NCBI RefSeq assembly: GCF_023115355.1
Contig: NZ_CP096019.1
Location: forward strand, 1,860,001 to 1,924,000
DNA length: 64,000 nucleotides
Source: Halocatena salina
GTDB taxonomy: Archaea; Halobacteriota; Halobacteria; Halobacteriales; Haloarculaceae
Reading direction: 5' to 3'
Part shown: positions 2,347-38,582 of the stretch, one piece after another
How the letters are laid out: each line of letters begins with the position of its first letter
Position numbering within the stretch: position 1 is the stretch's first letter
Translations under genes and position numbers: made by a program
The notes under the pieces: model-generated
What the model was told of the DNA's origin: nothing
The model's database searches: none
Seen by the model: only the letters and a program-made list of their open reading frames with translations

Positions 2347-2399
2347 TTCGATCACCGACGGGCGTCGTATGGTTCAACCGCCACCGCGGTCACATCCCG

Positions 2400-2415
2400 A
2401 CCTGTTCGAACAGGT
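2400..2415. promoter_or_regulatory. 16-bp perfect palindrome between L15e and ArsR-type regulator
   Basis: ACCTGTTCGAACAGGT equals its own reverse complement across all 16 bases. It lies in the divergent control region, 54 bases before L15e and 155 before the regulator. Such a site suits a homodimeric winged-helix protein. A short direct repeat GGTGCCC follows at 2413 and 2423. Confidence 0.5.
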
Positions 2416-30717: not shown

Positions 30718-31698
30718 TCACTCCCAGAGTTCGTACAGATCGTCTTCAACGGGCGTGGCGATCGGTTCGCCGTCGAGGACGACCCCCGGCTCCTCCGGGG
30801 CGTCGACGCGACCGATGACGGCGCCTGTAACGTCGCTCGCTTCCAGTGCTTCGAGCGCTGCGTCCCGTTCTGAACCGGGAACCGTCGCCAACAGCGCCCC
30901 CGAGCCGAAGATACGGAGCGGATCGACGCCTAACGCGTCACAGAGCGCTTCGGTCTCCGAGCGAACGGGGATCGTCGATCGCTCGACCGCGAACGTGGCC
31001 GATGAGGAGGTAGCCATCTCGATGAGTCCGGTGAGCACGCCACCTTCGGTCGGGTCGTGCATGGCCGTCGCGTAGGAAGCCAGTGCCGATGCGCTCTCTA
31101 AAACGGACAGCTCGTCGTAGTACGCCGTCGCAGCGGTGAGCACGTCGTTCTCGACCTGCCCATCGAGTTCCTCGCGGAAATCCGAGGCGAGGATGGCAGT
31201 GCCCTCGATGCCAGCGCTCCCGGCCATGAGGATCACGTCCCCAGCACTGGCTCCCGAGGAGGAGACGTAGCGATCCGTCGTCCCGAGACACGTCATCGAC
31301 AGTAATGGCCGGGACAGCTCCGTGGAGTACTCCGCATGGCCACCGATCACCTGTACACCCATCGTCGCCGCGGCGTCGTCGATCTGGCGGGTGATCCGAT
31401 CCAGCTCCCGGTCGCCGTCGTCGGGAAGAATACACACGTTCGTCAGCCACCGCGGTGTCCCTCCCGAAGCAGCGATGTCGTTGCACGCGACCGTCACCCC
31501 AAGGGTTCCGACGCGATCGATGGCCAGCGAGATCGGATCCGAGTTGACGACCAGCAGCTCCTCATCTCCCGCCTTATCCACGCGAAGCGCCGCGGTGTCC
31601 TCACCGTACGCTGGCCCCTGCACCACCGCCGGATCCGAGCCTCCGAGCCGCGTGAACACCAACTGTTCTAACGTCTCGGGTGGAACTTTCCCGACCAT
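30718..31698 (-). CDS. AIR synthase-related protein (PurM/HypE/ThiL fold)
   Basis: A 326-residue ATP-grasp-like PurM-superfamily protein. Features are the ATP-binding N-terminal half with AYGEDTAALRV and VNSDPISLAIDRVGTLGVTVACNDIAASG, the conserved GGHAEYSTEL segment, and the C-terminal MHDPTEGGVLTGLIEMA and ALLATVP motifs. The DPTEGG block and overall layout are closest to HypE, the carbamoyl dehydratase of hydrogenase maturation, but the C-terminal PRICxx-Cys tail that carries the thiocyanate is absent, and no hydrogenase genes are nearby. It is thus one of the uncharacterised archaeal AIR-synthase-like enzymes rather than true HypE or PurM. Confidence 0.8.
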   Translation of the reverse strand: MVGKVPPETLEQLVFTRLGGSDPAVVQGPAYGEDTAALRVDKAGDEELLVVNSDPISLAIDRVGTLGVTVACNDIAASGGTPRWLTNVCILPDDGDRELDRITRQIDDAAATMGVQVIGGHAEYSTELSRPLLSMTCLGTTDRYVSSSGASAGDVILMAGSAGIEGTAILASDFREELDGQVENDVLTAATAYYDELSVLESASALASYATAMHDPTEGGVLTGLIEMATSSSATFAVERSTIPVRSETEALCDALGVDPLRIFGSGALLATVPGSERDAALEALEASDVTGAVIGRVDAPEEPGVVLDGEPIATPVEDDLYELWE

Positions 31699-36141: not shown

Positions 36142-36148
36142 CTTTTTC
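36142..36148 (+). terminator. T-run terminator after tRNA-Gly
   Basis: CTTTTTC directly after the tRNA acceptor end, a typical archaeal T-tract terminator. It sits between the tRNA and the 3' end of the convergent zinc-ribbon gene, 11 bases away. Confidence 0.5.
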
Positions 36149-36150
36149 GT

Positions 36151-36618
36151 TCATTGATCCTGTGAAATCGGTCGGGTCAGTGTGCGCAACGCCCGCCGCC
36201 GCCGGTAGAAGTAGAACATCCCGACGATGAGTGCGACGAACGGGAGACATCCCCCAACGGTCCACCCGATGCTCGGGTCCCACCGGCTGTTTGCTCGCAC
36301 GTACATAGCGTCGACGAACAGCCCGATCGGCGGAAGCACCCACCCCGCAAAGACAGCTGTTTCCCCGAACAGCACGTTCGCGTCGTACATCCCTGTGTAC
36401 GCCTGAAGCGCCATTCCAACGACGATCACGCACCACCAGTTTCCCGAGATGATCGTGTCGTGCTGTTCGGGATCGTGTGCTCTTATCTCTCTAGTTTCTG
36501 ATGGCATCCACGCCGCGTTCCGGACACCACAGTGGTGGCATATCTCAGTAGTCCGTTCGATAGGCTCTCCACACGAGCGACAGAACACTTCATCGCTCGC
36601 TTTGGATCGTGGGCTCAT
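36151..36618 (-). CDS. Zinc-ribbon membrane protein (downstream member of tandem pair)
   Basis: A 155-residue protein. A double CxxC zinc ribbon near the N-terminus (FCRSCGEPI and ICHHCGVRN) is followed by a hydrophilic linker (SETREIRAHDPEQHD) and three probable membrane helices (WWCVIVVGMALQAYTG, ETAVFAGWVLPPIGLFVDAMY and IGWTVGGCLPFVALIVGMFYFY), ending in a basic tail (RRRRALRTLT). The ribbon is predicted cytoplasmic. Start at the ATG of MSPRSKASDEVFC. The gene is 4 bases after the similarly built 36623-37078 gene and forms an operon with it. Function unknown. Confidence 0.75.
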   Translation of the reverse strand: MSPRSKASDEVFCRSCGEPIERTTEICHHCGVRNAAWMPSETREIRAHDPEQHDTIISGNWWCVIVVGMALQAYTGMYDANVLFGETAVFAGWVLPPIGLFVDAMYVRANSRWDPSIGWTVGGCLPFVALIVGMFYFYRRRRALRTLTRPISQDQ

Positions 36619-36622
36619 CGCT

Positions 36623-37078
36623 TCAGTAGCTTCCAATGCCAGCAATCCGAAGTTCGCCTTTGGCGTCCGAAATGATCCTCAAAATGTGCAAGGGAACGAG
36701 TATGAATCCCAACAGAAAGTAGTTGAGGGTGAGGAAGTTGACGAGTGCCCATCCCCACTTACCGACGTACACGTACCCCACTGGGGGGGCAAGCAGACCG
36801 AGGAGCGCTCCCAAGAGCGTACTCTTACCGGCGATGCTTTCGAGTTCGTACTGCCGCCGAGCGGTCATGGTACTGTCGCTGTCAGCGCGATCACCGGTCT
36901 CGAGTTTGTTCTGTTTGATACCGCAGTGTGGGCATATTTCGGCCGCTTCTTTGATTGTCTGCCCACAGTCCATACAGTACACCTCGTTTGGACCTGCTAT
37001 CGCTTTCTCGTCATCAGTTGCTACGTCCGTCTCTAACTCGTCCGTAGTGGCTATCTCCGTTCGATCGTCGTTTACCAT
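36623..37078 (-). CDS. Zinc-ribbon membrane protein (upstream member of tandem pair)
   Basis: A 151-residue protein of similar layout: acidic start (MVNDDRTEIATTDELETD), zinc ribbon YCMDCGQTIKEAAEICPHCGIKQN at about 33-55, acidic linker with Ser/Thr, then two hydrophobic helices (STLLGALLGLLAPPVGYVYVG and WALVNFLTLNYFLLGFILVPLHIL) and a short tail. The helical part resembles TM2-type domains (GLLAPPVGYVYVGKWGWA). Start at MVNDDRTE, since the upstream extension reads through AT-rich DNA. It precedes the other zinc-ribbon protein by 4 bases. Roles may include sensing or assembly of a membrane complex; not known. Confidence 0.75.
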   Translation of the reverse strand: MVNDDRTEIATTDELETDVATDDEKAIAGPNEVYCMDCGQTIKEAAEICPHCGIKQNKLETGDRADSDSTMTARRQYELESIAGKSTLLGALLGLLAPPVGYVYVGKWGWALVNFLTLNYFLLGFILVPLHILRIISDAKGELRIAGIGSY

Positions 37079-37469
37079 TTTGCTACTAGAAATACATGGG
37101 TGGTTGTACTTTATCTGAGTGTTCATACGCAATGGAATTCGTTACCCATTCTACTATATATTTGATATATTTTTCATCGTTAAGTCATGAGGAAGTCATC
37201 ATCTTCTCTTGACATGACACGAAGTGTTATTACTATCCACGGAAGAACAACATTTCGATCCTATTCAGTAGAGCAGATGCTCATCAGATACGAAATAACG
37301 ATTAGAAGGTAGCCAGCCGAACCTGCTAAGTCGGGGCACGACAGGTGACTGGCTACCTGGCCTGGTTATCGCTCCTATCAATAGTATTTTCGGCCAGTAC
37401 AACATGCTCCTGTTCCAGAGGGGTCATTTGTCGTTCCGAACCGTTTCATCTGAGGAATCAAACGGTCAG
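37079..37469. other. Intergenic region with a strong nested hairpin
   Basis: About 390 bases between the 5' end of the zinc-ribbon pair and the 3' end of ftsY (both on the minus strand). The part nearest the zinc-ribbon gene is AT-rich (37140-37180, e.g. CTACTATATATTTGATATA on the plus strand) and should contain its promoter. No gene seen. The notable element is the hairpin at 37307-37358. Confidence 0.6.
37307..37358. ncRNA. Candidate structured RNA or long terminator: 10-bp stem with nested stems
   Basis: AGGTAGCCAG (37307-37316) and CTGGCTACCT (37349-37358) are exact reverse complements over 10 bases. Inside, ACCT (37321-37324) pairs with AGGT (37343-37346), and GTCG (37330-37333) pairs with CGAC (37339-37342) around the loop GGGCA, giving a three-tier hairpin. 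The fold is equally good on both strands. On the minus strand it lies 112 bases after the ftsY stop. It might be an ncRNA, a processed 3' structure of the ftsY operon, or the remnant of a mobile-element end. Confidence 0.4.
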
Positions 37470-38582
37470 TCAGCGGTCTTCGACGTCGCCTTCGAGGAGG
37501 CGATCGGTGATCTGTTCGGGATCGAACCGTTCGAGATCGTCGTACTCCTGTCCAACGCCGAGAAAGAGGATCGGCTTTCCGGTGACGTGAGCGATGGAGA
37601 TCGCCGCACCGCCTTGTGGATCGGCGTCCGCTTTGGTGAGGATCGCGCCGTCGATCTCGGCCGCGTCGTTGAATTCGGATGCGCGTTGGACGGCGTCCTG
37701 TCCGGCGACGGCCTCGTCTACGAACAGAGTCATGTCTGGATCGACGACACGATCGATCTTTTCGAGTTGGGCCATCAGATCGTTGCTGGTGTGGAGCCGT
37801 CCGGCGGTGTCCCCGAGGACGATATCCACGTCGTTTGCGCGTGCGTATTCGACCGCGTCGTAGAGGACGGCCGTCGGATCGCCGCCCTGTTCGTGGGCGA
37901 TGAACTTCTTATCGAGCGCGTCGGCGTGCTCACGGAGCTGTTCGTTCGCCCCCGCCCGATAGGTGTCGCCGTTTGCGAGCACCGCCGAATATCCGTGTCG
38001 TTCGAAATAGCGCGCGAGCTTCGCAATGGTCGTCGTCTTTCCGACGCCGTTGACCCCAGTGAACACCATGACGAGCGGCTTGTCGGTCTCGGCGACGTGC
38101 TGATCGAAGTCGAACTGGCCGACACTGATCACGTCGAACAGAGCCTCTTTGAGGGCCGATTCGAGGACCATATCCGTCGACTGTACCTGTGCCCTGACTG
38201 TGCCTTCGAGGTTCTCACGGATCCCTGCGAGGATCTCCTCGGCAACACCCATCTCCACGTCACTGGAAAGCAACGATAGTTCGAGGGTCTCAAGCGGTTC
38301 GTCGAGATGTTCGGGCTGGATGATGACTCCTCCCGTTGCGAACGCCTTGGCTCGCTTGCCGAAGCCGACGGAAACCTCACGGTCGTCTTCCTCGACCGTT
38401 TCGGGGTCCTCAGACGGGTCTCGATCCGGGGGCGCTGGATCTTCTCGTTTTTGGTCTTGGTCCCGTTTTTCCTCTACCGTATCGACATCGGTGTCAGCTT
38501 CGGTCTCCGCGTCGACGCTTTCGGCTTGTTCTTCCACATCGTCTTTGAACCGATCGAGTGTTTCCTTGAGTCCCTCGAACAT
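37470..38582 (-). CDS. ftsY: Signal recognition particle receptor FtsY
   Basis: SRP receptor GTPase that docks SRP-ribosome complexes at the membrane; 370 residues. The A-domain (1-75) is extremely acidic (VDAETEADTDVDTVEE), then the N domain helix bundle and the G domain: G1 GVNGVGKTT at 176-184, DTYRAGANEQL insertion-box segment, G3 DTAGRLHT, G4 TKADADPQGG and the closing GxGQEYDDLERFDPEQ. It is the last gene of the L39e-L31e-aIF6-LX-prefoldin operon, 10 bases after pfdA. The SRP54 gene, often next to ftsY in archaea, is not adjacent here. Confidence 0.97.
   Translation of the reverse strand: MFEGLKETLDRFKDDVEEQAESVDAETEADTDVDTVEEKRDQDQKREDPAPPDRDPSEDPETVEEDDREVSVGFGKRAKAFATGGVIIQPEHLDEPLETLELSLLSSDVEMGVAEEILAGIRENLEGTVRAQVQSTDMVLESALKEALFDVISVGQFDFDQHVAETDKPLVMVFTGVNGVGKTTTIAKLARYFERHGYSAVLANGDTYRAGANEQLREHADALDKKFIAHEQGGDPTAVLYDAVEYARANDVDIVLGDTAGRLHTSNDLMAQLEKIDRVVDPDMTLFVDEAVAGQDAVQRASEFNDAAEIDGAILTKADADPQGGAAISIAHVTGKPILFLGVGQEYDDLERFDPEQITDRLLEGDVEDR

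Follow-up and report, generated by a model that had tools for sequence, protein, structure and literature searches.

The Halocatena salina DNA analyzed here (64,000 nucleotides, referred to as the window) carries on its minus strand an ftsY gene followed by a zinc-ribbon gene, and between these two genes lies a region in which a first-pass annotation had described a hairpin. By our reading of the sequence the ATG of the zinc-ribbon gene is at 37078, and the gap between ftsY and this codon measures 391 bases, close to the gene-free interval of about 390 bases given in that annotation; 111 bases, rather than 112, separate ftsY from the hairpin. Lying in this gap, the hairpin is intergenic, as is expected of a haloarchaeal small RNA (sRNA). 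Two mechanically called plus-strand ORFs reach into the gap (37345-37590, 81 aa, and 37404-38279, 291 aa, the latter antisense to ftsY), and neither of them spans the hairpin. The ftsY gene itself has a match in 36 of 39 genomes, that of H. salina included. The features of the locus, together with one ORF at a related locus, are collected in Table 1.

Table 1. Features of the hairpin locus in the window and a small ORF at a related locus (L062)
Feature	Position	Strand	Remarks
ftsY	37470-38582	-	ORF of 370 aa; upstream neighbor on the same strand; gene name from the first-pass annotation
Conserved block (island)	37293-37418	-	79% of columns identical in three Halocatena species
BRE/TATA-like promoter element, GAAAATACTATTG	37379-37391	-	fixed offset from the stem base at 5/5 loci
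Predicted transcription start, A at the hairpin foot	37358	-	inferred from the general BRE spacing; A invariant in the alignment
Predicted hairpin RNA, 52 nt	37307-37358	-	12-bp outer stem, inner stem and C-rich apical loop GUGCCCC; basis of models R1 and R3
Possible tail and 3' end region	37286-37306	-	sequence only
Zinc-finger-like ORF, 38 codons, MAERNYCPEC...	L062 1390-1506	-	directly behind the second H. pleomorpha hairpin

Fold of the hairpin and conservation of the surrounding block

The hairpin had been described as a pair of 10-base arms enclosing nested ACCT/AGGT and GTCG/CGAC pairs around a GGGCA loop, and all of these elements are present. The arm AGGTAGCCAG occupies 37307-37316, its complement occupies 37349-37358, and the nested pairs appear in the minimum-energy fold of the plus strand; in the minus-strand fold the inner helix is ACCUGU/GCAGGU instead. 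Both strands fold better than shuffled sequences, most clearly the minus strand. The plus-strand fold has an energy of -26.5 kcal/mol (z -2.16; 4 of 200 shuffles equally good), that of a 66-nt minus-strand piece -30.2 kcal/mol (z -4.57), and that of a 73-nt minus-strand piece beginning at the predicted 5' end -29.7 kcal/mol (z -5.29), with none of 200 shuffles as good in either minus-strand case. The fold alone is an insufficient case, because 10-base inverted repeats are not rare in the window, which contains 10 perfect ones with a spacer of up to 60 bases against a mean of 6.1 in 60 shuffles (sd 2.1, largest 11). Conservation, rather than the inverted repeat as such, distinguishes the hairpin at 37307-37358. 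Two near-matches of the hairpin arm, with one mismatch each, are located 66 bases apart on the plus strand of the window at 31008-31017 and 31074-31083.

The region downstream of ftsY was compared among three species of the same genus: the window, Halocatena pleomorpha SPP-AMP-1 (G004) and Halobacteriales archaeon YIM A00010 (G005). A block that includes the hairpin is identical in all three at 100 of 126 columns, and within the hairpin at 44 of 52. Identity falls to 17/65 columns (26%) in the spacer between the ftsY stop and the block, and to 16/92 columns (17%) on the far side of the block, which corresponds to 83 bases of the window; pairwise homology with both H. pleomorpha and YIM A00010 ends near 37293-37296. 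The third codon positions of ftsY are identical in the three species at 187 of 333 (56%). The block therefore has clear-cut edges and a lower rate of change than third codon positions. A peptide-coding reading of the block was considered and rejected: a frame can be traced, but third positions are not enriched among the changes between the window and another Halocatena species, G002, and the length difference between these two is not a multiple of three. Runs of T occur in the tail region of the H. pleomorpha and YIM A00010 copies and are weaker in that of the window, and a terminator scan of the window returned none on the minus strand. A paper on hyphae and spores (PMC10067837) lists YIM A00010 among haloarchaeal strains reported to differentiate morphologically; that this strain carries the hairpin does not imply a link to morphological differentiation.

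Further copies in the genus Halocatena

Two covariance models were used to search for additional copies. The first, R1, was built from the three hairpins with the promoter left out, and the second, R3, included the G002 copy and the promoter. Searched against 146 genomes of the family, R1 returned the three known copies and five weak matches with E values of 0.03-0.06; an E of 0.03 per genome is not significant by itself over 146 genomes. One of these matches is the copy in G002 (23.8 bits, E 0.034). The same match is given by G006, whose sequence equals that of G002 at the three locus pairs compared, and the two were counted once. G002 and G006 also share coordinates at the compared loci, G006 being larger and bearing 9% contamination, and G006 may be the organism of G002 plus other DNA. 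The weak R1 matches in G064, G138 and G147 were taken as chance, because E values of 0.03-0.06 are expected several times in 146 genomes and R3 misses these matches at E 0.1; that in G147 sits inside long ORFs, and that in G064 (L052) is similar to the outer stem and the stretch preceding it.

In the seven genomes of the genus, R3 yielded a single additional match up to E 10. It scored 28.1 bits with an E of 0.033, which is not decisive over 146 genomes, and represents a second H. pleomorpha copy. Copies are thus present in five of the seven genus genomes (four of six without the duplicate), in the same five of 146 family genomes, and in four of 392 order genomes, a set that overlaps the family set. 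R3 gave no match up to E 0.1 in family genomes outside the genus, and it found nothing in other genera among the 146 family and 392 order genomes, in searches whose stricter filters may have let distant copies escape. G001 and G003, two of the six distinct Halocatena genomes, showed no copy even with filters off over 46,203 bases around ftsY and tRNA-Gly(GCC). A pattern built from the copies matched only those copies in the 146 family genomes, and a reversed control pattern gave two matches. The genome of the window holds one copy. Phage and plasmid records contained no BLAST match to the block; in viral contigs a first pattern gave no match and a second gave two, neither of which was matched by R3 and which were taken as chance.

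A promoter-like element at a fixed distance from the stem

At all five loci a G[AT]AA[AG]T element begins exactly 37 bases before the stem base AGYCAG, and the sequence TATTG is invariant. The first H. pleomorpha copy reads GTAAGT where the other copies read GAAAAT or GAAAGT, and in the G002 copy TTCGAAAATTATATTG keeps this exact distance from the stem, even though this region was absent from the R1 model that found it. In Archaea, the BRE sits about 33 bases upstream of the transcription start. The hairpin thereby appears to possess a basal promoter of its own, with a predicted BRE and TATA box at the right distance from its foot. The published haloarchaeal consensus has CGAAA as BRE and TTWT as TATA box (PMC4983044). 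Over the 45 nt upstream of the stem, G002 agrees with the group consensus at 24 of 45 positions (p 4e-5 against shuffled letters) and the second H. pleomorpha copy at 22 of 45 (p 6.4e-4), and these two diverged loci agree with each other at 22 of 45 (p 0.008); the comparison is not fully independent, because about 20 of the 45 G002 bases were already in R1 and all 45 of the second H. pleomorpha copy in R3.

The element bears on the suggestion of the first-pass annotation that the hairpin is a processed 3' end. An ftsY mRNA 3'-end element, acting as a terminator, processing site or stability hairpin, would account for the position of the hairpin a short distance past the ftsY stop, on the same strand, in three species. 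The conserved promoter-like element, however, separates ftsY from the hairpin, and ftsY is not a neighbor of two of the five copies; for these two reasons a processed 3' end is disfavored. Additionally, the spacer to ftsY is unconserved, and no such hairpin was found downstream of ftsY in G001, G002 or G003. We consider a 3'-end role highly improbable.

Structure conservation across the copies

The annotation had proposed that relatives would be informative if they carried the same stem with compensatory changes. The stem is largely kept, through G-U pairs and a few two-sided changes, but the covariation does not exceed its control. A MAFFT alignment of four copies has 94.4% of its cells paired, with two-sided changes at two pairs and one-sided changes at four, and shuffles reach the observed values in 51/500 cases for cells paired, 164/500 for two-sided pairs and 123/500 for the covariation score. 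A structure-guided alignment of all five copies, made by hand, pairs in 84 of 85 cells with five positions changing on both sides; this alignment was fitted to the structure, and G002 was left out of the inner stem, where three of the five two-sided changes fall and where the result depends most on how the copies are aligned. The outer stem is maintained through changes of U-A to C-G, C-G to U-G and U-A to U-G, and the loop GUGCYCC is kept in the five copies. In the second H. pleomorpha copy the outer stem has 13 bp, and an apical GUCGG/CCGAC helix is present that the model left as an insert. For G002 the most stable fold is different in the inner part, and none of the five copies has the evaluated shared core as its lowest-energy fold.

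An inverted repeat with such conserved arms could instead act as DNA, as the binding site of a dimeric protein, and the single-stranded DNA of the hairpin likewise folds well (z -4.38). Some copies, however, have G-U pairs at outer-stem positions 2, 5 and 9, which keep RNA pairing and break a DNA palindrome, and for a DNA site the exact spacing to the promoter has no obvious reason. There is, in our judgment, only a very slight chance that the hairpin functions as a DNA site.

Genomic surroundings of the copies

The copies of the window, YIM A00010 and the first H. pleomorpha locus sit between ftsY and tRNA-Gly(TCC), with a varying interval between hairpin and tRNA. Two further loci lie away from ftsY. 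The G002 copy is beside tRNA-Gly(GCC), with a convergent DUF4349 gene on its other side. The gap that contains it is about 770 bases long; its counterpart spans only some 150 bases or fewer in G000 and G004, and in G001, G003 and G005 it is taken up by other sequence. The tRNA-Gly(GCC) of G002 (L063 8902-8972) differs at one T-arm base (CCCGG for CCCAG) from that of five other genomes compared; this tRNA adjoins the extra stretch, a pattern that an integrated element could leave. The second H. pleomorpha copy precedes a 38-codon ORF and has no tRNA within 1.5 kb. Among Halocatena species the sequence 3' of tRNA-Gly(TCC) and tRNA-Gly(GCC) is highly variable (window 36142-37293; L066, L067, L074, L075). 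G001 and G003 contain tRNA 3'-end fragments after ftsY, in the tRNA-Gly flanks, and, judged by eye, toxin-antitoxin-like small gene pairs adjoining tRNA-Gly(GCC).

The hairpin could also belong to a mobile or integrating element with insertion sites next to tRNA-Gly genes, as a terminal repeat, an attachment region or a cargo RNA; the position of the three ftsY copies, the lengthened gap and altered T-arm base of G002, and the tRNA fragments in G001 and G003 are all consistent with this. The second H. pleomorpha copy, however, lacks a tRNA in its vicinity, the window and G002 copies are oriented differently relative to the tRNA, and the phage and plasmid records lack a match. No integrase, transposase or phage family was recognized among the neighboring proteins scanned (10 by Pfam and 9 by PHROGs, part of the neighbors), and no mobile-element gene was found around the second H. 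pleomorpha copy among 7 of the 15 non-overlapping ORFs of at least 110 aa in L084 and the two nearest. We regard a mobile-element part as very unlikely. The end of a lost mobile element, which the first-pass annotation had offered as one explanation, fares differently in its two forms: a terminal repeat of the IS or MITE type is disfavored because the genome of the window shows a single copy, and no transposase was recognized among the neighbors scanned, whereas an element may have carried the hairpin, given that copies lie near tRNA-Gly, one of them in a lengthened gap. A mobile origin could explain how the hairpin moved, but would leave its continued association with the promoter unexplained.

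The small ORFs behind some of the copies raise the alternative of a cis-acting leader, in which the hairpin forms the 5' end of small zinc-finger or zinc-ribbon mRNAs and controls their translation, the downstream gene having been lost or lying farther away elsewhere. The case is clearest at the second H. pleomorpha locus, where the 38-codon ORF, with two Cys pairs, begins 18 nt past the stem with a GGTGA motif between them; zinc-ribbon matches in a Pfam scan of this ORF were all below cut-off, and comparison with plasmid records gave no match. In G002 a 36-codon frame opens 6 nt past the outer stem and is not zinc-finger-like; the next recognized protein gene there is the convergent DUF4349 gene. 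A zinc-ribbon gene follows on the same strand in the window and, judged by eye, at the first H. pleomorpha copy, but in the window its ATG comes about 230 nt after the hairpin, and the A+T-rich stretch in front of it could, by eye, be a promoter of its own. The next gene in YIM A00010 is an alpha/beta hydrolase gene on the other strand, with zinc-ribbon homology about 3 kb away. By eye, no zinc-finger ORF is directly behind the hairpin in the window, at the first H. pleomorpha copy or in YIM A00010, such that an arrangement expected at most loci is clear at one of five. The sequence past the hairpin block is, moreover, not conserved. The leader reading accounts well for one locus and perhaps for a second, but poorly for the remaining three. 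We hold it to be unlikely in general; the second H. pleomorpha hairpin may be such a leader.

Discussion

The hairpin was compared with known RNAs. Rfam families comprise structured RNAs, including archaeal ones, and in this respect resemble the hairpin; at the hairpin, a search of the window with Rfam release 15 found no family at cut-off. When the threshold was relaxed to E 10 within the gap, six matches appeared, all far below cut-off, and the two over the hairpin are human lncRNA families. Elsewhere in the window (2366-2414, minus strand) the eL15-Euryarchaeota ribosomal protein leader was matched with 46.3 bits against a cut-off of 33.7. Box C/D guide RNAs carry UGAUGA and CUGA motifs, and H/ACA guide RNAs a pseudouridylation pocket with ACA. 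Inspection by eye found neither UGAUGA nor CUGA in the 52 nt and no two-sided pocket between the stems, and no Rfam guide family reached cut-off; a guide RNA of either type was rejected on these grounds.

Among archaeal sRNAs, those of Haloferax volcanii are among the closest comparisons. CPXCG zinc-finger micro-protein mRNAs are reported to be negatively regulated by sRNA132 (PMC6560208), and a single short region of s479 is predicted to pair with its targets (PMC8155600). The candidate resembles these intergenic sRNAs (itsRNAs) in being intergenic, short and haloarchaeal. It differs in consisting almost wholly of one hairpin with a C-rich loop and in that its models have no match in other genera among the genomes searched. 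The Methanosarcina sRNA154 is described in a review as a structured, intergenic, genus-conserved sRNA whose loops are held to contact targets (PMC5867862); it belongs to a different lineage, and the resemblance is only one of kind. In the literature on Halocatena, haloarchaeal promoters and haloarchaeal sRNAs, no listed title or abstract opening describes the hairpin RNA, and a search joining haloarchaea, sRNA and ftsY found nothing. The hairpin looks like a previously undescribed small RNA gene.

An ncRNA was also among the explanations offered by the first-pass annotation, and it is the one supported by the conserved island, the promoter-like element at fixed spacing, the two further loci and the largely kept stem. 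The reading we favor, with a confidence somewhat above even, is that the hairpin represents a stand-alone, genus-specific small ncRNA gene on the minus strand, of about 52-75 nt, which might act by way of its C-rich loop. RNA polymerase would start at about 37358 and make an RNA of 52-75 nt, mostly a single rigid hairpin whose outer stem would protect the RNA and display the loop. The loop might then pair with G-rich stretches of target mRNAs and alter their translation or stability, in the manner of trans-acting intergenic sRNAs. This action on targets is a guess from the exposed and conserved loop, and a protein-binding role of the hairpin fits equally well.

A broader version of the stand-alone sRNA proposal would join it to the leader and the mobile element. 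Promoter and hairpin could form a genus-specific cassette that spreads between tRNA-Gly flanks and micro-protein genes, producing a free sRNA at most loci and serving as the leader of a zinc-finger mRNA at another, with both RNAs competing for one partner. We consider this decidedly unlikely.

Most known archaeal small RNAs were discovered by RNA-seq of a small number of model species, and few by structure comparison. The candidate described here may regulate other genes in Halocatena, and because its promoter and 5' end can be predicted and five copies are available for comparison, it can be targeted directly in expression and deletion tests.
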